36,823 nucleotides of DNA from a virus, in IMG/VR virus record IMGVR_UViG_3300047322_000085, positions 1-36,823 of that record; one strand, written 5' to 3'. Each line of letters starts with the position of its first letter. Position 1 is the first letter of the stretch. A program made the position numbers and the translations under genes. Of the stretch, positions 9,602 to 31,055 are shown piece after piece. The notes under the pieces are model-generated. The model ran no database searches. It had not been told where the DNA came from and was given only the letters and a program-made list of their open reading frames with translations.

Positions 9602-10314
9602 CCGGAACTGAACTGATCACGCTGGCGCTGAAGGATATCGGCGCGCTCGGTATCGGCCAGTCCGTGTCTGCCGAAGATACGGCCGATGCGCTCGCGACGC
9701 TGAACATGATGCTCGGCCAATGGGATGCGGATCGGTTGAGCGTCTATCACCTGGTCGACACTGCGCATCAGGCGAACGGGTCGGTTTCCTATACCGTCGG
9801 CATCGGTGGCGACTTCAATGTCACGCGGCCGATCAAGATCAACGCGGCCTATGCGCGCCTGCAAAGCAGTGGCGCGGGCAGCGCGGTCGACTACCGCGTC
9901 ACCATGATCGACGCGCGCGAGGACTATTCGCGCATCAGCCTCAAGACGCTCTCGTCGTTCCCGGAATACGCCTTCTACGACTCGGCCTATCCGCTGGGCA
10001 GCCTGTTCCTGTACCCGGTGCCAAACAGCAGCTACGAGCTGCACATCGTGACCATGGAGACGTTGCCGCAGCTTGCCACGGCTGCGACTGTCGTCAACCT
10101 GCCGCCGCCTTACCTCGCGGCGCTGCGCTACAACCTCGCGATCTACCTGTGCCCGTCCTATCAGCTGGAGCCGACACCTTCACTGGTGCGGCTCGCTATG
10201 AACGCAAAGCGGGTGATCAAGCGCATGAACACGCAGATTCCGTCCCTGACGATGCCGCGCGGTCTGATGACGAAATCGCGCTACAACATCTACAGCGACA
10301 ATTCGAGCAACTGA
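9598..10314 (+). CDS. P22 gp4-like tail accessory / head completion protein
   Basis: A 238-residue protein of the P22 gp4 family. Recognisable parts are TGTELITLALKDIGALGIGQ at the N terminus, ALATLNMMLGQWDAD, and EYAFYDSAYPLGSLFLYPVP, with PPYLAALRYNLAIYLCPSYQ further on. P22 gp4 (166 residues) binds the portal as a ring after packaging, prevents DNA leakage and provides the site for tailspikes and gp10. This copy is longer, with a C-terminal basic tail (NAKRVIKRMNTQIP to the end). Its stop overlaps the gp10-like start (TGATG at 10312-10316), consistent with coupled synthesis of neighbouring tail rings. Confidence 0.9.
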   Translation: MTGTELITLALKDIGALGIGQSVSAEDTADALATLNMMLGQWDADRLSVYHLVDTAHQANGSVSYTVGIGGDFNVTRPIKINAAYARLQSSGAGSAVDYRVTMIDAREDYSRISLKTLSSFPEYAFYDSAYPLGSLFLYPVPNSSYELHIVTMETLPQLATAATVVNLPPPYLAALRYNLAIYLCPSYQLEPTPSLVRLAMNAKRVIKRMNTQIPSLTMPRGLMTKSRYNIYSDNSSN

Positions 10315-11738
10315 TGCGAGTCCCGCTCACAACCGGCGCGTACCAGACGCGCAGCGTGATCGCCGAGGCGCAGCGCTGCGTGAACCTCTACGCCGAGGCG
10401 AACCCGCAGGACGCGCCGTGTCCGTTCACCTATTACCCGACGCCGGGCCTCACGCTCGTGTCCGCGCCTCCGACCCCAGGTGAGAGCCGCGGCATCTACA
10501 CCGCGAGCAACGGCAATCGCTATGACGTAGTTGGCAGCACGGTCTATTTCGTCGATGCTTCGCTCACTTATACAGTGCTCGGACAGCTTACGACGAATAG
10601 CGGGCCCGTCTCGATGGTCGATAACGGGACCAATGCATTCATCGTAGACGGCTCGGTAAACGGCTTCATGGTCGATCTGAAGGAAAACATCATGACGGGT
10701 GTCGGCGACCCGGCCTTCTATGGCGCCGATAAGGTCGATTTCGTCGACGGTTATTTCATCTTCAACAAGCCAGGAACCCAGCAGTTCTACATCTCGCTGT
10801 TTGACGACATCAAGTTCGATTCACTCGACATCGCGTCGAAATCGACGTATTCGGACAATCTGGTGACGCTCGCTGTGATGCACCGCGAAATCTGGCTGTT
10901 CGGCGAACTGACAACCGAGGTCTGGTACAACACCGGCGCGACGGACTTCACGTTTGGCCGCATGCCGGGCGTGTTCATCGAGCACGGGTGCGCCGCCAAA
11001 CATTCAGTCGCAAAGATCGATCTGGCGCTGTTCTGGCTGGGACAGGATCTGCAAGGGCAGAACGTGGTGTTCGCCGGCCGCAACTATATGGCAGAGCGGA
11101 TTTCCACGCATTCTATCGAGCAGGCGCTGTCGTCTTACTCGCGCGTGGACGATGCGATCGGCTTTTCGTATCAGCAGGGCGGCCACGCCTTCTATGTGCT
11201 GACGTTCCCGACGGCGAATGCTACGTGGTGCTTTGACGTGGTGACGGGCCAGTGGGCAGAGCGCGGCTTTCTCGAAGCCGATGGCACGTTCAGCCGGCAT
11301 CGGATGAACTGCCATTCGTTTAACGGCGGCCGGAATCTCGTCGGCGACTGGCAGACGGGCATGGTCTACATGCTCGACCAGAACAACTACACGGACAACG
11401 GCGCCACGATTGAATACGTGCGCGCGTTCCCGCATATCCTAGGCGCCGACGGTAACCGCGTGATGTTCCGCCAGTTCATTGCGGACATGGAAGTCGGTAA
11501 TGGGCTGCCCGATGACTCGGCCGAGCCAGAAATCCGGTTGCGCTGGAGCGATGACCGCGGCCGAAGCTGGGGCAATTACGTTCAAGGCAGCCTCGGCAAG
11601 GTCGGGGAATACCTGACCTCCATCCAGTTCCAGCGGCTCGGCTACGCGCGTGATCGCGTGTTCGAACTGTCGTGGTCGGCGCCGGTGAAGACCGCGCTGA
11701 ACGGCGCATGGGTGGACGTGTCGAGGTCGCGCACGTGA
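10314..11738 (+). CDS. P22 gp10-like packaged-DNA stabilisation protein (tail hub)
   Basis: A 474-residue protein, matching P22 gp10 (472) in length and type. The N terminus (RVPLTTGAYQTRSVIAEAQ, then RCVNLYAEANPQD) is a family signature, as are VMHREIWLFGELTTEVWYN and the repeated beta-propeller-like strands through the middle. In P22 gp10 sits below gp4 and holds the needle and tailspikes. The start is ATG 10314, overlapping the gp4-like stop; a much longer frame from 9720 is an overlap artefact. The stop at 11738 overlaps a GTG start of the next gene. Confidence 0.9.
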   Translation: MRVPLTTGAYQTRSVIAEAQRCVNLYAEANPQDAPCPFTYYPTPGLTLVSAPPTPGESRGIYTASNGNRYDVVGSTVYFVDASLTYTVLGQLTTNSGPVSMVDNGTNAFIVDGSVNGFMVDLKENIMTGVGDPAFYGADKVDFVDGYFIFNKPGTQQFYISLFDDIKFDSLDIASKSTYSDNLVTLAVMHREIWLFGELTTEVWYNTGATDFTFGRMPGVFIEHGCAAKHSVAKIDLALFWLGQDLQGQNVVFAGRNYMAERISTHSIEQALSSYSRVDDAIGFSYQQGGHAFYVLTFPTANATWCFDVVTGQWAERGFLEADGTFSRHRMNCHSFNGGRNLVGDWQTGMVYMLDQNNYTDNGATIEYVRAFPHILGADGNRVMFRQFIADMEVGNGLPDDSAEPEIRLRWSDDRGRSWGNYVQGSLGKVGEYLTSIQFQRLGYARDRVFELSWSAPVKTALNGAWVDVSRSRT

Positions 11739-12241
11739 GCAACTCCACGAACAGCAACATCCCGCAGCCTGGAGCTTCATTTCTTGTCGGCAGGCCCGAG
11801 CCTATCAGCCCCGTATGGTGGGCATTCCTGCTCGCACTGTTTGAGCGCACTGGCGGCACAGGCACGCCGACACCAGTCAAGCAGATCGATTACACGCCGC
11901 TGATTGACGCGCAGGCGCCTTATCCGCTGTCCCCGCCCGCGCAGGATGCGCCCGCCGCGGTGGCATGGCAGCCCTCTCTTGCGGATCTCGCGCCAGAACC
12001 TGTCTCAGTGCCAGTTTTCGCCGTCGATCCAATCGAGGACATTTTCACCGCCGGGACGAATTTCACGCCGGGCACAACTACGACGCTGACGCTCTCGAAG
12101 GGCTACACGTCAGCCGCGGCGGTGCTCGTGCACTTCGACGGCACATTCCAGGCGACGGACCAGTACAGCGTTTCAGGCAACACGATCACCTTCACGTCAG
12201 CTATTCCGGTCGGCGTGTCCAAAGTCTATGCGCGAGGCTAA
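11735..12241 (+). CDS. Fibre-like virion protein sharing a module with the tailspike
   Basis: A 168-residue protein in the place of the P22 tail needle gene. The start is GTG 11735, overlapping the gp10-like stop (GTGA). The N-terminal part resembles short anchors of phage fibre proteins (PQPGASFLVGRPEPISPVWW, followed by a short hydrophobic helix and TGG). After a Pro/Ala-rich linker, residues about 103-168 form a beta module (FTPGTTTTLTL, HFDGTFQATDQYSVSG, AIPVGVSKVY) that is clearly related to residues 99-165 of the tailspike at 18825-21935. It lacks the long coiled coil of a P22 needle. Likely a short fibre or plug at the tail tip; exact role inferred. Confidence 0.7.
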   Translation: MSNSTNSNIPQPGASFLVGRPEPISPVWWAFLLALFERTGGTGTPTPVKQIDYTPLIDAQAPYPLSPPAQDAPAAVAWQPSLADLAPEPVSVPVFAVDPIEDIFTAGTNFTPGTTTTLTLSKGYTSAAAVLVHFDGTFQATDQYSVSGNTITFTSAIPVGVSKVYARG

Positions 12242-12244
12242 AGC

Positions 12245-12577
12245 ATGACGACGAAATACCGCGAAATGGTGGCAGGGCAGACCCTGACGGGCAGCGCCGC
12301 TTCCTACTACACCGCGCCGACATCCACTTATGGCGCCATCCATGCAGCCAGCGTGTGCAATCCGACTGGCGCCGTCGTGACGGTGAATATCTACAAGGTC
12401 CCGACCGGGGGCGCCGCGGGCTCGCCGACGAAGATCGCGAGTAAGGCGGTCAGCGCTGGCGCAACCATCGCTGTTCCCGAAGTAATCAATCACAAGTTGG
12501 AGCCCGGCACGCAGCTTTACGCCGATGGCCTCGCCTGCACGCTGAATATCAGCGGCGTCGAATACGTTCCCAGCTAA
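12245..12577 (+). CDS. Hypothetical small beta-rich virion-region protein
   Basis: A 110-residue protein rich in Gly, Ala, Thr and Val with alternating strand patterns: SASVCNPTGAVVTVNIYKVP-like stretches in the middle and GTQLYADGLACTLNISGVEY at the end. Proteins of this size and composition are common next to fibre genes in phages and may form small trimeric or decoration domains. It starts three bases after the previous stop, and its own stop abuts the next ATG. The family is not recognised. Confidence 0.65.
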   Translation: MTTKYREMVAGQTLTGSAASYYTAPTSTYGAIHAASVCNPTGAVVTVNIYKVPTGGAAGSPTKIASKAVSAGATIAVPEVINHKLEPGTQLYADGLACTLNISGVEYVPS

Positions 12578-13159
12578 ATGAAAAACTTCCACTTCCTCGC
12601 AAACGGCGTTGATGTCAATCCGCTGATGCTCGCGATCCGCCGCCGGCCCGACCTCTGGAAAGAGGACACGTTTCTTCGCCACTACCCGCAAGGGCCGTTC
12701 GGCGAAACCGAGACGATCATGCTGCGCTTCCCGGAGAAGGTCGAAGGGCTCACGGAAGAACAGATCGACCTGTACAAGCAGAACCTGCTTGCCGGATACG
12801 ACCAGTACGAGGCGATCGACTATCCGGCCTATAAGGTGCTGCACGAAGCACGTCCGTTGGTCATGAATCTGATGGCACGCGTCGGCGGTGAGCGGCTTGG
12901 CCGGGTGATGATCAACAAGATTTGCCCGGGCGGCCGGATCTTCGCGCACGCCGACACACCCGAGCAGACGCGCTATTACACGCGCTTTCATATCGTGCTG
13001 CATGGGCTCCCCGGCGCAGTCCTGAAGGCTGGCGATGAGCAGATCAACATGCTCACCGGCGAATGCTTCTGGTTCGACAACAGCCAGGTTCATTCGGTGG
13101 AAAACAACAGCGCCGACGAACGCGTGTCGATGGTCGTCGATATCAGGACTTCGCGATGA
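12578..13159 (+). CDS. Aspartyl/asparaginyl beta-hydroxylase-like Fe(II)/2-oxoglutarate dioxygenase
   Basis: A 193-residue protein whose C-terminal half is a double-stranded beta-helix oxygenase. The iron ligands are visible as H124-A-D126 (FAHADTPEQTRYYTRFH) and H172 (NSQVHSVEN), and R182 ten residues later (DERVSMVVDIR) is placed to hold 2-oxoglutarate. The pattern is that of the aspartyl/asparaginyl beta-hydroxylase group, which oxidises protein side chains. It is encoded between tail and ejection genes and coupled by ATGA overlap to an acetyltransferase, so a virion or host protein is the likely substrate. All key residues are present, so an active enzyme is expected. Substrate unknown. 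Confidence 0.85.
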   Translation: MKNFHFLANGVDVNPLMLAIRRRPDLWKEDTFLRHYPQGPFGETETIMLRFPEKVEGLTEEQIDLYKQNLLAGYDQYEAIDYPAYKVLHEARPLVMNLMARVGGERLGRVMINKICPGGRIFAHADTPEQTRYYTRFHIVLHGLPGAVLKAGDEQINMLTGECFWFDNSQVHSVENNSADERVSMVVDIRTSR

Positions 13160-13614
13160 TCACGTTCACCATTGAGCCGTTCTCCGGCGTCTATGCCGAA
13201 CTGCTGCCGCTGCTGCGCAAGCATTACGGCGAAATCTCGACCCATAAGGATCACGGCGTGCCGCTCGATCCTGTGGTCGAGGTCTATCGCGCGCGTGAGC
13301 TCGACGGCTCTCTGCTGATGGTCATTGGCCGCGAGCGCGGCGAGATCGTCGCCTACTTCGTCTGCTTCATCGCACCGGGCCTGCATTACCGCGACTGCCT
13401 GACGTGCTCGCCTGACATTTTCTTTGTGCGCGAGGACAAGCGGACGGGGCTCGCCGGCGTGCGGATGTTCCGGTTCGTGGAAAAGGAATTGCGGCGCCGC
13501 GGCGTCAGGCGGTGGGCAGTCGGCAGCAAGGTTCAGCACGACGCGTCTGCGTTGTTCAAGTTTCTCGACTTCGAACCTGTCGAGACGACCTACGAAAAGT
13601 GGCTGGGGGATTAA
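13156..13614 (+). CDS. GNAT-family N-acetyltransferase
   Basis: A 152-residue GNAT-type protein. The core strand (YFVCFIAPGLHYRDCLTCSPDI with its neighbours) precedes a pyrophosphate-binding region (EDKRTGLAGVRMFRFVEKEL) and a long helix, then RWAVGSKVQH and the end FKFLDFEPVETTYEKWL, typical of the family. The RTGLAGVRM stretch stands where the Q/RxxGxG/A motif binds acetyl-CoA. Related genes occur in other podovirus tail regions, where their targets are unknown. The start is ATG 13156, overlapping the hydroxylase stop; the frame from 13063 lies inside that gene. Coupling suggests the two enzymes act on the same or neighbouring proteins. Confidence 0.8.
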   Translation: MITFTIEPFSGVYAELLPLLRKHYGEISTHKDHGVPLDPVVEVYRARELDGSLLMVIGRERGEIVAYFVCFIAPGLHYRDCLTCSPDIFFVREDKRTGLAGVRMFRFVEKELRRRGVRRWAVGSKVQHDASALFKFLDFEPVETTYEKWLGD

Positions 13615-13617
13615 ATC

Positions 13618-14373
13618 ATGGTCGCAGCAGCAGTAGCCGGCGCGGCAGTCGTCGGGGGTGTGGCTTCGAGTGCTATGAGTTCCAGCGCCTCCAGAAGCGC
13701 CGCAAACACGCAATCGGATGCGGCAAAGTATTCGGCGGACTTGCAGAACGATCAATGGCAACAGACGCAACAAAATCTGAAGCCATATATGGATCTGGGC
13801 GCGAGCTATATCAACCCACTCAAGGATGCGCTCGCCAATCCGATGTTGACGCAGCAATTCAGCGCCCCAACGGAGGTGCAGGCGCAGGCGACGCCGGGCT
13901 ATCAGTTCACGCTCAATCAGGGGCTGAAATCGGTCCAGAACAGCGCCGCGGCGCGCGGTCTCGGTGTATCTGGAGCGGCCATGAAGGGCGCTGCGAGCTA
14001 TACAACCGGGCTCGCGGATTCGACCTACAACGACGTGTTCAACCGTGCTTTGCAGACGTTCAATACCAACTACAGCAGCGCGGCCAACAACGTGAACCGA
14101 CTCGCGGGCGTCGTCGGCAGCGGTCAGAACGCAGCGGCGACAAATGGCTCACTCGGCGCACAGGCCGTCGGCAACATAGGCAACACGCTCACGAGCGGCG
14201 CCAACGCGCAGGCAGCCGGAACCATTGGAGCGGCTAACGCGCTGTCTAATGGCCTAAATGGCATCACCAATGGCGCCACGAGTTATGCGCTGCTATCGAA
14301 CAATGCAGGAGCCGCGGCGCCGTCTAGCGCGTCAATGGCGGCTGGTAGCAATGGCTACGGCTTCACGGTCTAA
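13618..14373 (+). CDS. DNA ejection (internal virion) protein
   Basis: A 251-residue Ala/Gly/Ser/Asn-rich protein with a hydrophobic N terminus (VAAAVAGAAVVGGVASSAM), then KYSADLQNDQWQQTQQNLKP, GYQFTLNQGLKSVQNSAAARG and ASYTTGLADSTYNDVFNRAL. These features are common in podovirus 'DNA transfer' proteins in the P22 gp7 position, first of three ejection genes. Such proteins leave the head with the DNA and help form a channel across the host envelope. The C-terminal 80 residues are very Ala/Asn/Gly-rich and probably flexible. Placement before two larger ejection proteins supports the call. Confidence 0.8.
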   Translation: MVAAAVAGAAVVGGVASSAMSSSASRSAANTQSDAAKYSADLQNDQWQQTQQNLKPYMDLGASYINPLKDALANPMLTQQFSAPTEVQAQATPGYQFTLNQGLKSVQNSAAARGLGVSGAAMKGAASYTTGLADSTYNDVFNRALQTFNTNYSSAANNVNRLAGVVGSGQNAAATNGSLGAQAVGNIGNTLTSGANAQAAGTIGAANALSNGLNGITNGATSYALLSNNAGAAAPSSASMAAGSNGYGFTV

Positions 14374-14382
14374 GGAACATAC

Positions 14383-15876
14383 ATGCCACTCGATCCTAGC
14401 ATCGCATTGAACGCCAATGCTCCGAAGCCCGCCAATCCATTGCAAGAGGCTTTGTCGATCGCGCAGTTCCGCGCACTGAACGCAAGCGGCCAGGCGCAGC
14501 AACAGCAGCTTGCCGCGAACCGCGCCACTTCTGCCGCCTATCAGCAGGCCACCGATCCGACGACCGGCCAGGTGGACAATAACAAGCTCGTCGGCATCCT
14601 GAGCCAGAACCCTGATGCGGCCTACAACCTGCCGCAGGTGATTCAGGGCATCAACACGCAGAAACAGCAGCAGCAGAACTTACAGACCGGCCAGCTCGAC
14701 CAGTCGATCAAGGCGCAAAGCGGTCTGCGGCAGGGGCTCGGCAGTCTGCTGACGAAGCCTGACCTGTCGCCGCAGGACGTGCAGGGCTTCGCCACGACGC
14801 AACTGCAGGCCGGCGCGATCACGCCTCAGGTGTATCAGGCGGAAATGCAGTCGATGCCGCAGGACCCGCAGCAGCTTCGCCAATGGGTGTCCCAACATTA
14901 CATGTCCGCGCTCAGCGGAGAGACGCAACTACACGCGATGCTGCCGCAGTACGCGCAGATCAACACCGGCCCGGCGACGGTGGCGGTCAATCAGAACCCG
15001 CTCGCATTGAGCGGCGGCGTCGGCACGGTCGGCTACACGGTGAACAACGGGCTGTCGCCCACTGAAGCCGCCGCGCAAGTTCCCGTCGTCAATGCTGACG
15101 GCACGCCCGGCATGCGCAGCAAGGCAAGCGTGCTTCAGGAGCAGGGGCTAGGCGGTCTGCTTCCCCCAGGAGCGCAGGGAAGCGGCATTGGCACCGGGCG
15201 ATATGGCTCGTCGAACAATGGTGTCGTCGCAACCGGGCCTGCTGCAGGCGTGGTCGACGCAACCCAGAAGGCGAACGCGGCCGGCGGTGACATGCTCGCG
15301 GCAGACCAGCAATCGAATGCACAGTCTGGAACCCGCATCAACATGCTCCAGAGCGCACAGCAGGCGCTCGCCAACTCGACCACCGGCAACGGCGCAGACA
15401 AGCTCAACGCGATCAAGAGCCTGCTCGTGACCGCCGGCATCGCGCCGCAAGCGACCGTCGATAGCGTCAAGAACTTCGACGAGGCCAACAAGTACCTCAC
15501 GCAGTATGCGCAGCAGAAAGCGGCCGGCCTCGGCAGCGGGACCGATGCGCAACTGTCCGCGGCGATCTCGGGCAACGGCAATACGCATATCTCGAATCTG
15601 GCCGCGCAGGACGTAGTGAAGGTCAATATCGGGCTTGAGCGTATGGAACAGGCCCGCATGCAGGCCTGGCAGAACTCTGGGCTGCCGCCGTCTGACTATG
15701 CCAAGTGGAAGTCGCAGTTCGGCTCGACGCTCGATCCGCGCGTGTTCGTCGCCGATCAGATGGATCCGGCGAAGGTCAAATCGATGTACGACAAGATGCC
15801 GCCGAACCAGCAGGCCCAGTTCCGCACGCAATATAACTGGGCGGTCCAGAAGGGCTATGTGACAGGGCCGCAATGA
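14383..15876 (+). CDS. DNA ejection (internal virion) protein
   Basis: A 497-residue protein in the P22 gp20 position. It is Gln/Ala/Gly-rich with many amphipathic helices (LQEALSIAQFRALNASGQAQ near the start; QQQQNLQTGQLDQSIKAQ in the first third), lacks cysteines and has no signal or membrane segment, as expected for proteins stored in the head and ejected partly unfolded. The C-terminal third (ADQMDPAKVKSMYDKMPPNQ) is more ordered. It is preceded by AAGGAA nine bases before ATG and ends in an ATGA overlap with the transglycosylase-type ejection protein. Assignment rests on order and composition. Confidence 0.8.
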   Translation: MPLDPSIALNANAPKPANPLQEALSIAQFRALNASGQAQQQQLAANRATSAAYQQATDPTTGQVDNNKLVGILSQNPDAAYNLPQVIQGINTQKQQQQNLQTGQLDQSIKAQSGLRQGLGSLLTKPDLSPQDVQGFATTQLQAGAITPQVYQAEMQSMPQDPQQLRQWVSQHYMSALSGETQLHAMLPQYAQINTGPATVAVNQNPLALSGGVGTVGYTVNNGLSPTEAAAQVPVVNADGTPGMRSKASVLQEQGLGGLLPPGAQGSGIGTGRYGSSNNGVVATGPAAGVVDATQKANAAGGDMLAADQQSNAQSGTRINMLQSAQQALANSTTGNGADKLNAIKSLLVTAGIAPQATVDSVKNFDEANKYLTQYAQQKAAGLGSGTDAQLSAAISGNGNTHISNLAAQDVVKVNIGLERMEQARMQAWQNSGLPPSDYAKWKSQFGSTLDPRVFVADQMDPAKVKSMYDKMPPNQQAQFRTQYNWAVQKGYVTGPQ

Positions 15877-18593
15877 TGGCTGATTACAGCGACCTCTTCG
15901 AAGCGGCCGGCAAGCAGTTCAACGTCGATCCGCGCCTGCTGCGCGCGGTGATGACGCCGGAAAGCTCGGGCAACCCCAATGCGGTTTCGCCCAAGGGCGC
16001 GACCGGTCTCATGCAACTGATGCCGGCCACCGCGAAGGAAATGGGCGTCACTGATCTGACCAACCCGCAGCAGAGCATCTTCGGCGGCGCGCGCTATCTG
16101 GCGCAGCAGCTCGACAAGTACAAAGACCCGGCACTCGCGCTGGCTGCCTATAACGCCGGCCCGGGCAACGTCGACAAGTACGGCGGCATCCCTCCTTTTC
16201 CTGAGACTCAGGCGTATGTAAAGAAGGTGGCCGCCGCGTATCAGGCGCAACCACAGTCACAAGGTCAGAACATGCCGCAACAATTGCCAGGCCTGCCGCC
16301 GACTGCCTCGGATGCCCCCACCGCTGGCGGCGATCCGTTTTCCGCATTGCTCGCGAAGGCAGGGCCTTCTTCTACACCGGGTCAGGGAGCCGCGCCGGCA
16401 GCGAGTGGCGATCCGTTCGCCGCGCTAATGGCAAAAGCGGCTGAACCCGCGAAGGCCGCAGCGCAGTCCACAAGCCCCGCACAAGGTTCCGCGCCCGTCA
16501 CGGTAGGCAATGTATTGGGCGCTGCGCTGGAGCCGCTTGCGACTGCTGCAACGGGCGCCATCGCTGCACCCGTCAGCACCATCGCGCGCGTCGGCGCCGC
16601 GGCTCTGCCGGGCGTCTCGTTCGACCGCGCGAAGCAGATCGGTGAGAGTGTTCGGGATGCGCTGACCTATCACCCGCAGACGGCTGGCGGCCAGCAGGCC
16701 AACGCAGATATTGCACGGGTCGCTAGCAATGCGCTCAGCCCGATTGCCAACAGCGCACCGGTTCAGGCTCTGACGAACGGTTATCAGCAGAACTTCGTCC
16801 AGAACCAGTCGCCGCTCATGGGGACGATCAATGCTGTGATCCCCGGCGCGACTGCGCAGATCGTCGCGCCCGAACTCGCTGGCCGCGTGAATGGTCTCGT
16901 CAAGTCGATCGGCCGCGCCGATGTGCCTGCACCGGCGCCGGGCAGTGTCGAGCTTGCGAACCGCGGTGTTGGCCCGGTTCCGCAGGGACTTCCGCAAGCG
17001 CCGGTAGGGCAGATACCTGTCGCGCCGGCCGCCAACGACCTGTCGGCGATTCTCAAGACGGAGCAACCAGCCGTCGCGCCTCAGCCAGCCGCCACAATCG
17101 CGCGCGCGCCGGCGGCGAATGATGCTGTCGGGATCAACCGTGCGGCGATCAATGACGCGAGCGGCGGCCGGCCTGACCTGCCGCAGGCACCGTCGACGCA
17201 GATCGTACCGGCCAGCGCCGCGGCGAATGATGCGAGCAAGGCAGCGCCGGCCGCCGCGCCCGCTGCGCCCGCCGAAGTGCCGAAGTTCGACGACTCGGCG
17301 CCGTCGACCGTCAAAGCCTCGCTCGCACCGGATCAGCAACAGAAGAATCTCGATCTGATGCGCGAAGTAGGCTTGACCGAGACGCGCCCGAGCGCGATTT
17401 CAGGCGACAAGTTCTCAGCCGGCAATGAGTACCAGCTTGCGAAGAGCGACACGCCGCAGGGCGAAGTGCTGCGCGCGCAATTCGACAAGGAGCGGGCCGC
17501 GCTCGATAACTACTCACAGCAGATTGCGCAGGATACCGGCGCGCGCGCAGCGTCGCCCGAAGAAGCGGGGCAGATCATCCGCCAGCCGCTGCGCGACCTG
17601 AACGACTATTACGACAACGCGGTGAGCGGCGTCTATCAGGCTGCAGACCAGCGCGCGGGCGGCATTGCCGGGATCGATGCGGACTCGTTCAAGTCCATGA
17701 TGGATACCCGCTCGAACTTCGCCGGCAAGTCGGAAAACGGCGCGCTCGGGCGCGGTATCAATGCGTACCTGAAAGAGCAGGGCATCCGCAACGCAGACGG
17801 CACGTTCAACCCGATGACGGCGAAGCAGGCCGAAGGTGTGCGCCAGTACATCAACAGCCAATGGTCGCCGCAGAATTCCGGGCTCATCGGCAAGATCAAG
17901 GAATCGCTCGATACCGATGTCGCCAAGTCCGCGGGCGACGACGTGTATGCGCAGGCGCGCGCGCTGCATGCGGAGCGCAAGAACGTGCTCGACAACCCGA
18001 AAGGGATTTCCTCACTGCTCAACGAGGAAGGGCCGAACGGCATCAATCAGGCCGTTCCTGACGAGAAGATCGGCCAGAAACTGACCTCCATGCCGGTCGG
18101 GCAGCTTCGGCATATCGTCGAGACGCTGAAGAATGTGCCGGAACCATTGCAGCCGGGCGCGCAGCAGGCGTTGGCGGAAATGAAGGGCGTCTTTGCAGAT
18201 GCGGTCAGCAATGCCGGCCAGGGTGCGGAATGGAATGCAGCGAAGGTCACGAAGCAACTCAACGCGCAGCGCTCGCGCATGGGCCTGCTATTCGATGACG
18301 CGGAAATGAGCCGGTTTCGCACGCTTAACGACGCGGGGCACGTGTTGCAGAAGCCGACAGCCTATCCGGGCGCCGCGGTGCAGGGTCACAACCTGCTGCA
18401 AAAGGCGGTCATTCTCGGGCCAGCGGCGGCAACTGCGGGCGCCATGTCGGCGCTGTTCGGCCCGCTCGGTGCTGCGGCAGCGGGACCCGCCGGCACTGTT
18501 CTGACGAGGAAAGCGACCGAGTTTGTCAACCGGCGCGCGGCCAACAAGCTAGCGGAATCGCTGTCCAACCCACGCGTCGACTGGCCGAAGTAA
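15873..18593 (+). CDS. Ejection protein with N-terminal lytic transglycosylase (SLT) domain
   Basis: A 906-residue protein in the P22 gp16 position. Residues 5-125 form an SLT-type transglycosylase: catalytic E30 in TPESSGNPNAVSP, then GATGLMQLMPATA (43-55) and LALAAYNAGPGNV near 90. The enzyme would open the peptidoglycan locally as DNA enters the cell. A long Ala/Pro/Gln-rich linker with repeats of the type PAANDxxxINxAxIND (about 160-480) connects to a helical region and a hydrophobic C terminus (ILGPAAATAGAMSALFGPLG, then AAAAGPAGTVLT) that could insert in the inner membrane. P22 gp16 is 609 residues and lacks an obvious SLT domain, so this is a fused, larger version. Confidence 0.9.
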   Translation: MMADYSDLFEAAGKQFNVDPRLLRAVMTPESSGNPNAVSPKGATGLMQLMPATAKEMGVTDLTNPQQSIFGGARYLAQQLDKYKDPALALAAYNAGPGNVDKYGGIPPFPETQAYVKKVAAAYQAQPQSQGQNMPQQLPGLPPTASDAPTAGGDPFSALLAKAGPSSTPGQGAAPAASGDPFAALMAKAAEPAKAAAQSTSPAQGSAPVTVGNVLGAALEPLATAATGAIAAPVSTIARVGAAALPGVSFDRAKQIGESVRDALTYHPQTAGGQQANADIARVASNALSPIANSAPVQALTNGYQQNFVQNQSPLMGTINAVIPGATAQIVAPELAGRVNGLVKSIGRADVPAPAPGSVELANRGVGPVPQGLPQAPVGQIPVAPAANDLSAILKTEQPAVAPQPAATIARAPAANDAVGINRAAINDASGGRPDLPQAPSTQIVPASAAANDASKAAPAAAPAAPAEVPKFDDSAPSTVKASLAPDQQQKNLDLMREVGLTETRPSAISGDKFSAGNEYQLAKSDTPQGEVLRAQFDKERAALDNYSQQIAQDTGARAASPEEAGQIIRQPLRDLNDYYDNAVSGVYQAADQRAGGIAGIDADSFKSMMDTRSNFAGKSENGALGRGINAYLKEQGIRNADGTFNPMTAKQAEGVRQYINSQWSPQNSGLIGKIKESLDTDVAKSAGDDVYAQARALHAERKNVLDNPKGISSLLNEEGPNGINQAVPDEKIGQKLTSMPVGQLRHIVETLKNVPEPLQPGAQQALAEMKGVFADAVSNAGQGAEWNAAKVTKQLNAQRSRMGLLFDDAEMSRFRTLNDAGHVLQKPTAYPGAAVQGHNLLQKAVILGPAAATAGAMSALFGPLGAAAAGPAGTVLTRKATEFVNRRAANKLAESLSNPRVDWPK

Positions 18594-23406: not shown

Positions 23407-24231
23407 ATGAAGAAACTCTTTGGTGCGCTTCTTGCGCTTGTCTCGTCGGCCGCCATTTCGGCCACGCTCAATCCTATCCAATTGCTGAACCCGACTGGCT
23501 CGACATCCGGGCAGGTGATTATCTCGACCGGCTCCGGCACGGCGCCCGCATGGAGCAACGTCCCCGCAACGGCCTTGGCGTCTCAGTCGGCTAACTCGGT
23601 CATTGCCAACGTCACAGGCTCTGCTGCATCGCCGACGGTATTCGTCATGCCTTCATGCAGCGCGGCCGGCAATAATTTGCAGTGGACAAGCGGGGCAGGC
23701 TTCACGTGTGCTACCGGTTATGCGCAGCTCGCGTCGCCGACGTTCACAGGAACTGTCACAACGGCTGCTCTGACGGCTACTGGAGCGATCACCCCGAGTC
23801 AGACGGCAGGCATCGTCGGCACCACGACGAACAACAATGCGAATTCGGGGAGCATCGGCGAGCATGTATCGAACAGCGCGACCGGTGCGAGCCTGTCGAA
23901 CTCAACCGTAGTCAACGGAACTAGCATATCTCTTACAGCAGGCGATTGGGATGCCATCGCTCAATGCCGCTTCAACACAACAACTGCCACTATCGCGAGC
24001 GGGGCCGTAGGCATCAGCACGACTTCGGCGACGTACGGGGCATTCGGCACAATCGGCAATTTTGTGAACACGAACAACAGCGTCGCGACGACAAATACGT
24101 TCTATGCCAACACCATCCCCGTCCGCTTGAGCTTGTCGGCAACGACCACGATCTACGCTGTTACATCGGCGACGTTTGCTGCGGGAACTGTCACGGTTGA
24201 CTGCTTTATCCGCGCTCGCCGCGTGCGCTAG
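23407..24231 (+). CDS. Secreted tail-fibre-like protein
   Basis: A 274-residue protein that begins with a signal peptide (MKKLFGALLALVSSAAISA, likely cut near residue 18-19), unusual for a phage fibre. The body is Ser/Thr/Ala/Asn-rich with fibre motifs: NPTGSTSGQVIISTG, ASPTFTGTVTTAA, and a C-terminal beta domain (SISLTAGDWDAIAQCRF to the end) like the tip domains of tail fibres. Export would place it in the periplasm or outside the cell. It could coat the cell, block receptors, help lysis or bind virions after release. It closes the rightward late operon, and its last bases overlap the convergent methyltransferase stop. Confidence 0.8.
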   Translation: MKKLFGALLALVSSAAISATLNPIQLLNPTGSTSGQVIISTGSGTAPAWSNVPATALASQSANSVIANVTGSAASPTVFVMPSCSAAGNNLQWTSGAGFTCATGYAQLASPTFTGTVTTAALTATGAITPSQTAGIVGTTTNNNANSGSIGEHVSNSATGASLSNSTVVNGTSISLTAGDWDAIAQCRFNTTTATIASGAVGISTTSATYGAFGTIGNFVNTNNSVATTNTFYANTIPVRLSLSATTTIYAVTSATFAAGTVTVDCFIRARRVR

Positions 24232-25193
24232 ATCGCTTCTGCGACGGCAACGAAGTTCATCACGCAGAACATCTGCTCAGGGTCTTGCGTCGTCGCGCGC
24301 ATCACCTTGAGCAGTTTCGTCGCACTCCGCACCTTCCGTCTGATCTCGTCCGAGGGATAGGCAATGCTCTCAAGCTTTGCGATCGCTTCGTCGAATTTGC
24401 CTAGTTCTGCATCCGTGGCATCGCGCCGGCTGATTGTCCTGAAGCCGAGACGGTTAAGCAGCGCTTCGACCTCAACTTTGCACAGCCATTCATTCACATC
24501 ATCGTAAGCGCCATCGAAGTGCGCGGCATGGTATTCGGCTGCGCTTTCCCGGTCGAGCAGAATCATGCCCGGCAGCGCATAGTGCGGCTCTTTCAACATG
24601 AACAGAGGGAAGTACGGGTTGCCTGACTTTATGATGATCTTCCCGCCCTTCTTCAGCTTCGAGCGCGCAACCTTGAAAGTTTCCTCGATGGACGGCACGT
24701 GCTCCAGCACATCGAACAGGAACACGTAATCGAAATTAGCCGGTAGATCGCCGGTTACGGTTTCATCGAGTACTGACCCCGCCCGGATTGATGGCGGGTG
24801 ACCGAATGCAGAAAGGATATTGTTTCCGTTAAAGGCTCGTGGCTCACTGTATTCGATGCCGACGGCAGTTGATGCGCCGAGCTTTAATGCAGCACGCATG
24901 GCGTGCCCCGATGCACAGCCAATATCAAGCACGCGTGCGCCGTTCAGATCAAGACCTAGATCGCTCTGCAGATCAGACACCATCCGTAGCACCGCCTGGA
25001 AGGCGCCCATCTCCGATTCGAAACCGAGGTATGCCAGCTTGTTATCGCGCTGGCTGTCGCGCAGGTGGTGAATGTACAGCCGGGTAAAGCCGATGTCTGT
25101 CTCATAGTGCTCAACGATCCGCTGCGCAGCGTCTTCGGCATCATGGTCGAAGTCCGCAAACATTGCCTCGTTTGACTTGTACATCCACGCCAT
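24228..25193 (-). CDS. Class I SAM-dependent methyltransferase (likely lysogenic-conversion gene)
   Basis: A 321-residue Rossmann-fold methyltransferase. The SAM-binding motif I is VLDIGCASGHA (88-98), the acidic end of strand 2 is E114 (VGIEYSE), and motif III/IV is FDYVFLFDVLEHVPS (154-168). The C-terminal part is larger than in small metabolic methyltransferases and resembles enzymes acting on sugars or lipids of surface glycans, though the substrate cannot be read. It is transcribed against the late genes from an AT-rich leader (25194-25290) and, in an integrated prophage, would lie at the edge beside the attachment site. It looks less GC-rich than its neighbours. Ribosome binding site: GAGAAAGAGAC before ATG 25193. 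Confidence 0.85.
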   Translation of the reverse strand: MAWMYKSNEAMFADFDHDAEDAAQRIVEHYETDIGFTRLYIHHLRDSQRDNKLAYLGFESEMGAFQAVLRMVSDLQSDLGLDLNGARVLDIGCASGHAMRAALKLGASTAVGIEYSEPRAFNGNNILSAFGHPPSIRAGSVLDETVTGDLPANFDYVFLFDVLEHVPSIEETFKVARSKLKKGGKIIIKSGNPYFPLFMLKEPHYALPGMILLDRESAAEYHAAHFDGAYDDVNEWLCKVEVEALLNRLGFRTISRRDATDAELGKFDEAIAKLESIAYPSDEIRRKVRSATKLLKVMRATTQDPEQMFCVMNFVAVAEAI

Positions 25194-30029: not shown

Positions 30030-31055
30030 TCAGGCGAACTCAAAGCCACGCTCGCGGATCCGATCGCGTTGCAGGGCTTCGTATGCCGGGTTCAATTCGC
30101 ATCCGATGAACTTTCGGCCGAGCCGCGCGGCGACCTGCCCGGTGGTGCCGCTACCGAAAAACGGATCGAACACAACGTCGCCGGCCCGCGAGCCCGCAAG
30201 CACGCATGGTTCGACGAGTGCTTCGGGGAAGGTGGCGAAGTGGGCGCCCGGGTATGCTTCAGTTGCGATCGTCCAGACGCTTCGGCGGTTCGCCGTCGAA
30301 AGATCGACCTCGCCGTCTGCGCGCGTCTTCTGAGCATAGGCAAGCAGTCCTGCCTTCGTTCTGTGTCGCTCGTCGCCGTCGGCGTATGCAACGGCGCCCT
30401 TCGGCGGGTTTACGTTGCCGGCCGTCTTGTACTTGTCGCGCGCTTTGAAGTTCATCGTGTCGAAAGACTGGATCTTCGTCTCGAGACTGGCAGGCACACG
30501 GATCGACGCCATATCGCAGTAGTAGCTCGAGCTCTTCGTGAGCAGGAAGATGTACTCGTGCGCCTTGGTGCAACGGTCCTGTACTGATTCCGGCATCGGG
30601 TTCGGCTTGTGCCATACGATGTCCTGCCGGAGATACCAGCCGGCGTCTTGCAGTGCGAACGCGAGGCGCCACGGCTGGCCCATCAAGTCTTTGGCCTTCA
30701 GACCGGTATAGCGCTTGGCGCGGCCGATCCCGCTGTCTCCATGAAGCGCTGCCACGTGCTTTCCGCCAGTTGATCCGCCCCATTTGCTGTCGTTCGCGTA
30801 CGCGTCGCCCATATTCACCCATGCGGTACCGTCGTCGGCGAGCAGCTCGCGGCACAGTTCAAATACGCCCGTAAGCGTGTCGATGAATTCGCGCAGCGTC
30901 GGCTCGTGCCCGATCTGGCCGTCGACGCCATAGTCGCGCAAGCCCCAATACGGCGGCGATGTGACGATCGTCTGCACCTTTACGCCGTCGGCGATCATCG
31001 CGCGCATGGTGTCGCGGCAATCACCGAAGTGGCATTGATCGATCCAGTTGCTCAT
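30030..31055 (-). CDS. Site-specific DNA methyltransferase (N4-C or N6-A type, beta order)
   Basis: A 341-residue DNA methyltransferase. Catalytic motif IV is TSPPYWGLRDYG starting at residue 32, near the N terminus, and SAM-binding motif I is DPFFGSGTTGQ near 297, near the C terminus, the beta arrangement. SPPY is most frequent in N4-cytosine enzymes but also seen in N6-adenine ones. In between lies a variable target-recognition stretch (GQPWRLAFALQDAGWYLRQD, NPMPESVQDRCTKAHEYIFL). No matching restriction enzyme is nearby, so it is an orphan methylase that may protect phage DNA or regulate it. GAGGGAA lies upstream of ATG 31055. Confidence 0.9.
   Translation of the reverse strand: MSNWIDQCHFGDCRDTMRAMIADGVKVQTIVTSPPYWGLRDYGVDGQIGHEPTLREFIDTLTGVFELCRELLADDGTAWVNMGDAYANDSKWGGSTGGKHVAALHGDSGIGRAKRYTGLKAKDLMGQPWRLAFALQDAGWYLRQDIVWHKPNPMPESVQDRCTKAHEYIFLLTKSSSYYCDMASIRVPASLETKIQSFDTMNFKARDKYKTAGNVNPPKGAVAYADGDERHRTKAGLLAYAQKTRADGEVDLSTANRRSVWTIATEAYPGAHFATFPEALVEPCVLAGSRAGDVVFDPFFGSGTTGQVAARLGRKFIGCELNPAYEALQRDRIRERGFEFA

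Follow-up and report, generated by a model that had tools for sequence, protein, structure and literature searches.

The window, an IMG/VR virus record of 36.8 kb (IMGVR_UViG_3300047322_000085) analysed over the whole of its 36,823 nucleotides, has the gene order of a P22-type short-tailed phage: terminase subunits, portal, scaffold, major head protein, head-tail adaptor, Hc3 and small tail-fibre-like genes come first, followed by OX, GNAT, a gp7-type ejection gene, a gene in the gp20 position and a transglycosylase-bearing ejection gene, and then by a tail spike-like gene, holin, endolysin and integrase. OX (12578..13159, + strand) encodes a PF05118 2-oxoglutarate/Fe(II) oxygenase of 193 aa, assigned by Pfam, alignment, AlphaFold (AF2) modelling and PDB folds, and GNAT (13156..13614, +) a GNAT-fold protein of 152 aa, assigned by PHROG 1249, AF2 and Foldseek. 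The stop codon of OX and the ATG of GNAT share the bases ATGA, giving the four-base overlap that had been read from the sequence in a first-pass annotation; a mechanical ORF caller puts the GNAT start at 13063, but relatives align from 13156, which is the start used here. Upstream of the pair lie the head-closure gene Hc3 (P22 gp10-like; 10311..11738, +; PHROG 578, E 5e-117, the match beginning at residue 198 of the mechanical ORF 9720-11738), a small tail-fibre-like protein of 189 aa as called, with an uncertain start (11672..12241, +; PHROG 18673 tail fiber, E 1.7e-5), and, directly 5' of OX, a 110-aa protein (12245..12577, +; PHROG 20100, E 2.6e-5). Immediately downstream is a gp7-type ejection (pilot) protein of 251 aa with the N-terminus MVAAAVAGAAVVGG, which we propose as the substrate (13618..14373, +; PHROG 598 'DNA ejection', E 4e-33). 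It is followed by a second ejection protein by position (497 aa; 14383..15876, +), which occupies the gp20-like slot between the gp7-type and transglycosylase-type genes as P22 gp20 does and had no match in the PHROG search, and by a third, of 906 aa, with an N-terminal lytic transglycosylase domain (15873..18593, +; PHROG 2013, 669, 13449 and 342). The pair therefore sits between tail and ejection genes as originally described, with Hc3 and the tail-fibre-like ORF on one side and the phrog_598 and transglycosylase-type ejection proteins on the other. Two methyltransferase genes were also observed in the window: a class I enzyme between a tail-fibre-like ORF and the integrase (24228-25193, -), possibly a moron gene, and a DNA methyltransferase outside the virion block (30030-31055, -; PHROG 67, E 2e-71).

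OX matched Pfam PF05118 Asp_Arg_Hydrox at E 1.6e-13 (51.2 bits, cut-off 22.6), and its metal/2-oxoglutarate set, H124-x-D126...H172...R182, was invariant in an alignment of 64 relatives with identity down to about 32%, in agreement with the oxygenase and intact HxD...H...R set called from the window alone. For the AF2 model (pLDDT 92.2) the closest solved folds were L-proline cis-4-hydroxylase and AspH, which are double-stranded beta-helix oxygenases like OX and were recovered by both profile and structure matches. The best PDB match was 4p7w (TMq 0.67), of which the profile aligns only chain residues 65-184, and the structural neighbours included 4iw3, a bacterial prolyl hydroxylase solved with EF-Tu. 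AspH, however, is much longer, with a TPR domain and EGF-like substrates, whereas the 193 aa of OX leave no room for a TPR domain; moreover, the first metal motif of AspH (5apa/5jqy) aligns as HTG, without a carboxylate ligand, where OX has HAD. Judged by these profile and structural comparisons, OX is a PF05118 member but not AspH proper. Of the earlier label 'protein-hydroxylase', the oxygenase assignment stands, while the word 'protein' went beyond the matches, the solved kin being free-proline hydroxylases (4p7w, 1e5r) as much as AspH. Elsewhere, two cyanobacteria encode proteins of 670-810 aa that end in an OX-type domain (L250:8111-10540 and L257:38-2041) and gave no clear Pfam match in their N-terminal part, and in one metagenome contig (L027:5218-5796) the OX gene carries an in-frame stop after codon 73, with similarity running to its end and a full-length GNAT match.

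GNAT scored below threshold against Pfam Acetyltransf_1 (14.5 bits, cut-off 20.7) and matched PHROG 1249 'acetyltransferase' at E 4e-10. Its AF2 model has a mean pLDDT of 95.8 and an unambiguous GNAT fold, so that the GNAT call, too, was upheld by the PHROG profile and the model. The best PDB matches in Foldseek were a RimI-type ribosomal-protein-alanine N-acetyltransferase and AAC(3), at TM about 0.7-0.79, the closest solved fold being the RimI-type N-terminal acetyltransferase 7n1l at 13-14% identity; several phage GNATs matched at TM 0.84-0.91. Eight positions were invariant in 60 sequences, with H23, R59, Y67, H77, Y78, D87 and K125 as the named set. In the CoA loop (R/Q-x-x-G-x-G/A), R96 is present in 59/60 and G/A101 in 58/60, while the middle Gly is found in 13/60, and the loop appears partly canonical. 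Searches against PADLOC returned no match for GNAT and only a fragment match for OX (E 0.034); a defence function for the pair, which PADLOC does not support, was rejected.

OX and GNAT each served as a separate query for relatives in viral contigs, bacterial genomes and phage records, and the linkage statistics that follow describe this phage group and are not a random sample, since the queries came from the group. Both genes were found in 381 of 400 loci, a count that includes repeats of the same contig, and one GNAT locus was without a detectable OX. Among 256 distinct OX loci, GNAT came directly after OX in 238, the order being the same throughout, and the overlap was exactly four bases at 228 of the 368 junctions measured. 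The downstream region was readable for 230 distinct pair loci, and in 223 of them a gp7-type ejection gene lay at most 1.5 kb after the pair, nearly always at once. Chance is excluded, because the pair recurs in the same order in hundreds of loci: OX and GNAT form a real, conserved, overlapping late-gene unit. The gene-order comparison suggested by the first-pass annotation as a check on co-occurrence thus found homologues that were adjacent, not single and scattered. Hosts in the genome records include Achromobacter, Massilia, Paraburkholderia, Acinetobacter, Janthinobacterium, Rhodanobacter, Cupriavidus and sphingomonads. Departures from the arrangement were of several kinds: in OX-only loci (Variovorax, Ramlibacter and others) the gene right after OX is an ejection-like one whose product starts MPW; in another group of loci a different GNAT (phrog_1249) takes second place after OX; the pair does not adjoin the ejection gene in Limnohabitans phage DC33 and in L310; and the lone GNAT homologue of L505 lies in the terminase-portal region. 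By eye, an extra HNH-like ORF stands between OX and GNAT in two loci (L152:3701-4195 and L382:7465-7983), the HNH match of the latter being weak (E 0.16).

We then compared nonsynonymous divergence (dN) between the window and the relatives L060/L130, in which, for the late genes so compared, synonymous differences amount to about 0.73-0.85 per site and synonymous sites are saturated or nearly so. In these relatives dN was 0.10 for OX and 0.09 for GNAT, as against 0.39 for Hc3, 0.50 for gp7, 0.62 for the major head protein (MCP) and 0.73 for gp20. Recent transfer as the source of the pair's high identity was rejected for L060/L130 because of the saturation, or near saturation, of synonymous sites, and on these divergence values OX and GNAT are under strong purifying selection where such sites are saturated. 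Across 22 loci at intermediate distance, GNAT had a median dN of 0.18, the lowest of the genes measured in more than one locus; in the same loci OX fell into two classes, with a median dN of 0.47, which is not low. Partners also change: L236 pairs an OX at 84% identity with a GNAT at 46%, and L189 an OX at 52% with a GNAT at 88%. The two genes reassort independently and therefore need not act on one site; low dN together with changing partners suggests that each function is maintained, yet that the pair is not locked as one co-evolving complex.

The ejection protein that follows the pair has a distinctive start. When 88 representatives sharing less than 60% identity were aligned, its positions 2-5 (V-A-A-A) proved 85-92% conserved, equal to the structural glycines. 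Of 212 distinct pair loci, 180 have Val as the second residue. In 72 distinct control loci with a cupin-like protein in the slot, this residue is never Val and in 71 of them is Ser, Thr or Ala; for OX-only loci, Pro is the usual second residue of the ejection-type proteins (the MPW starts). After clustering at 50% identity with the first 12 residues left out, Val-2 was present in 47/68 pair clusters and 0/24 cupin-slot clusters (Fisher p 5e-10, a value that ignores shared ancestry and serves as a guide only). The start of the ejection protein thus appears to vary with the presence of GNAT, as an association in which shared ancestry is ignored. Mistaken start codons were rejected as the source of the VAAA pattern, since the Val codon is mostly GTC, GTT or GTA and seldom GTG. 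In many of the exceptions to Val-2 the protein is extended at its N-terminus by 15-28 residues, and VAAA comes after this extension without a preceding start codon, so that the conserved feature looks like a mature N-terminus, although VAAA may simply be the edge of a membrane segment. The extensions are reminiscent of the 20-residue leader of P22 gp7, which is removed by host OpdA; when the gp7 leader is removed, P22 still reaches about 60% of its normal burst (PMC8402733). In the extended proteins (L142, L164, L172, L241, L243 and L264) the extension often ends in Tyr/Phe-Cys-x before VAAA, and with its conserved cysteine it looks like a cleaved leader. The alignment of 88 representatives revealed no conserved OX target residue in the ejection protein, and no conserved Asp or Asn stood out. 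Pro56, which is 95% conserved, was considered as the target and set aside as not specific, because P22 gp7, which has no such pair, has a similar Lys-Pro-Phe motif (by eye).

The slot itself has a precedent. One paper proposed a GNAT in such a place as the counterpart of T7 gp13, on the ground that both adjoin internal virion proteins (PMC6775973); the earlier statement that no substrate is defined for such a pair is still true, but it left this precedent out. In Cobaviruses, Zobellviridae and VpV262 a GNAT that matches ours in sequence or fold lies between the tail genes and the first internal virion protein; unlike here, however, no OX partner was seen, and the protein that follows starts with MAVS or MSKA instead of VAAA. 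The homologues of Zobellviridae, again without OX, stand between the tail tube and an internal virion protein, in the T7 gp13 position. T7 gp13 (PF11090) and P22 gp14 (DUF2824, 'virion stability factor'), of 138-151 aa, are encoded immediately 5' of the first ejection gene, in the same slot as GNAT, but have no OX neighbour. No homology of GNAT to either was detected (hhalign probability <1% against both), and PDB profile searches with T7 gp13 and P22 gp14 retrieved no GNAT; although the slot is the same, we therefore do not claim GNAT as a homologue of these proteins.

Two named phages carry related pairs. The isolated Pseudomonas fluorescens phage PfAn1 has the whole arrangement of OX (58% identical to that of the window), GNAT (47%) and then an ejection protein beginning MVAAAVG (XRX11818.1), the two enzymes being annotated simply as hypothetical and putative acetyltransferase. 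In Limnohabitans phage DC33, ORF8, an OX-family protein (32% identity), is directly followed by a GNAT relative, as here, but the pair lies in the packaging region and not before an ejection gene. ORF8 was published as an aspartyl/asparaginyl beta-hydroxylase and auxiliary gene, one example of the PF05118 genes that phage studies have listed as auxiliary, and the passages of that paper found in our search do not discuss a GNAT neighbour or a virion role (PMC12195039). The DC33 record (L002, PQ492659.1) is filed under Inoviridae, while its paper describes a Caudoviricetes species with a 39-kb genome, and the taxonomy line looks wrong.

We tentatively propose that the pair is a late-expressed unit that modifies the phage's own ejection protein, with GNAT as an N-terminal acetyltransferase; position and sequence covariation point to the ejected protein as the best candidate substrate. 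Building on predicted folds, we infer co-transcription, catalysis, substrate, site and benefit as follows. OX, GNAT and the gp7-type ejection protein would be made from one message and translated together. The ejection protein would lose its initiator Met or, in some relatives, probably the 15-28-residue leader, exposing Val-Ala-Ala-Ala, and GNAT would act as a dedicated N-alpha-acetyltransferase on this newly exposed N-terminus. OX would hydroxylate the same or a neighbouring ejection protein before procapsid packing, and this modification would maintain the N-terminal segment, which is hydrophobic and rich in glycine, in a state suited to packaging or to inserting into the host envelope. Among the peptides VAAAVAGAAVVGG, SWVAAAV and PWGAAIG, GNAT would be expected to acetylate the VAAA start only. 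The target of OX is the weakest part of this model, its solved neighbours acting on free proline, protein Asp/Asn and other substrates. A wider form of the proposal, which we hold to be rather doubtful, is that phages carry enzymes that modify their own pilot protein, namely an N-alpha-acetyltransferase for the mature Val-Ala-Ala N-terminus of gp7-type proteins and a 2-oxoglutarate oxygenase, and that the pre-ejection slot (T7 gp13, P22 gp14, cupin, GNAT, OX) is a general site for finishing factors.

The pair could instead modify a host protein late in infection, such as a ribosomal protein, EF-Tu or an envelope protein, with the slot being only the place where the cassette is inherited or exchanged. 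In some comparisons both enzymes are much better conserved than all virion proteins tested, and remain so across phages with very diverged virion sequences, as a conserved host target would lead one to expect; the contrast between fast gp7-type evolution (dN about 0.5) and near-constant enzymes fits a conserved or host target as well. The GNAT fold, moreover, resembles RimI, which acts on a ribosomal protein, and the prolyl hydroxylase with EF-Tu (4iw3) is among the structural neighbours of OX. A host target, however, would leave unexplained why the late-operon place right before the ejection genes is fixed across phages of diverse hosts, and why the N-terminus of the ejection protein covaries with the slot gene; we regard it as unlikely.

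It is also conceivable, though improbable, that the two proteins serve mainly as assembly chaperones for ejection proteins, in the manner of T7 gp13 and P22 gp14, with catalysis being vestigial. Such a role would suit the shared genomic slot, the variable glycine of the GNAT CoA loop and the published equation of the slot GNAT with T7 gp13 (PMC6775973), but a vestigial OX should lose its metal site, whereas all four catalytic residues are invariant in 64 relatives, and in GNAT the set H23, R59, Y67, H77, Y78, D87 and K125 is invariant in 60 sequences.

We give similarly little weight to a target elsewhere in the virion, where the enzymes would modify the portal, capsid, tail fibre or scaffold in place of the ejection protein. 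The DC33 pair and the lone GNAT homologue of L505, both in the terminase-portal region, and the small tail-fibre-like and 110-aa proteins just upstream of OX speak for such a target, but placements away from the ejection gene are rare, and the small upstream genes are often absent or strongly diverged where the pair is kept. Least of all do we expect an auxiliary metabolic pathway for a free amino acid, for instance proline, which OX would hydroxylate and GNAT acetylate. Among solved structures the best neighbours of OX are indeed free L-proline hydroxylases, but these enzymes (290-292 aa) have about 100 extra residues, in their C-terminal part, that the 193-aa OX lacks, and a late place in the virion operon with tight association to the ejection gene is unexpected for a metabolic pair.

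Modification of the ejection protein by the pair would bear on how short-tailed phages load their ejection proteins and turn them into a conduit across the host envelope. We know of no agreed function for the small gene before the ejection genes (T7 gp13, P22 gp14), and the presence of a conserved enzyme pair in the gp13/gp14 slot, together with a candidate substrate whose terminus changes with the enzyme, leads to a specific prediction. If true, it would add oxygen- and acetyl-CoA-dependent protein modification to virion maturation, and the phage would chemically finish its own injection machinery. A literature search of partial coverage, on phage hydroxylase with acetyltransferase and ejection, virion hydroxylation or acetylation, and virion N-terminal acetylation, found nothing relevant; while a GNAT in this slot was already known, neither the paired oxygenase nor the covarying terminus of the ejection protein has a precedent in the literature searched.

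Other occupants of the slot were observed along the way. In many related podoviruses (L412-L421, L422-L501) it holds a cupin-like protein with invariant His residues (phrog_12032/24280, named tail fibre adhesin), after which the next protein starts M-S/T/A, often followed by an aromatic residue; this protein may be another finishing factor for ejection proteins. The slot protein of Pseudomonas phage PAE2 (L412:1866-2273) has a weak Acetyltransf_4 match (E 0.027) and is possibly a degenerate GNAT. Finally, the GNAT model matched a 132-aa viral 'host specificity protein A' from Citrobacter phage CR8 (Foldseek E 2e-4, TM 0.48); 132 aa is the length of CR8 gene 7 (L410 18240-18638), and T7 gp7-type proteins may have a GNAT-like fold.
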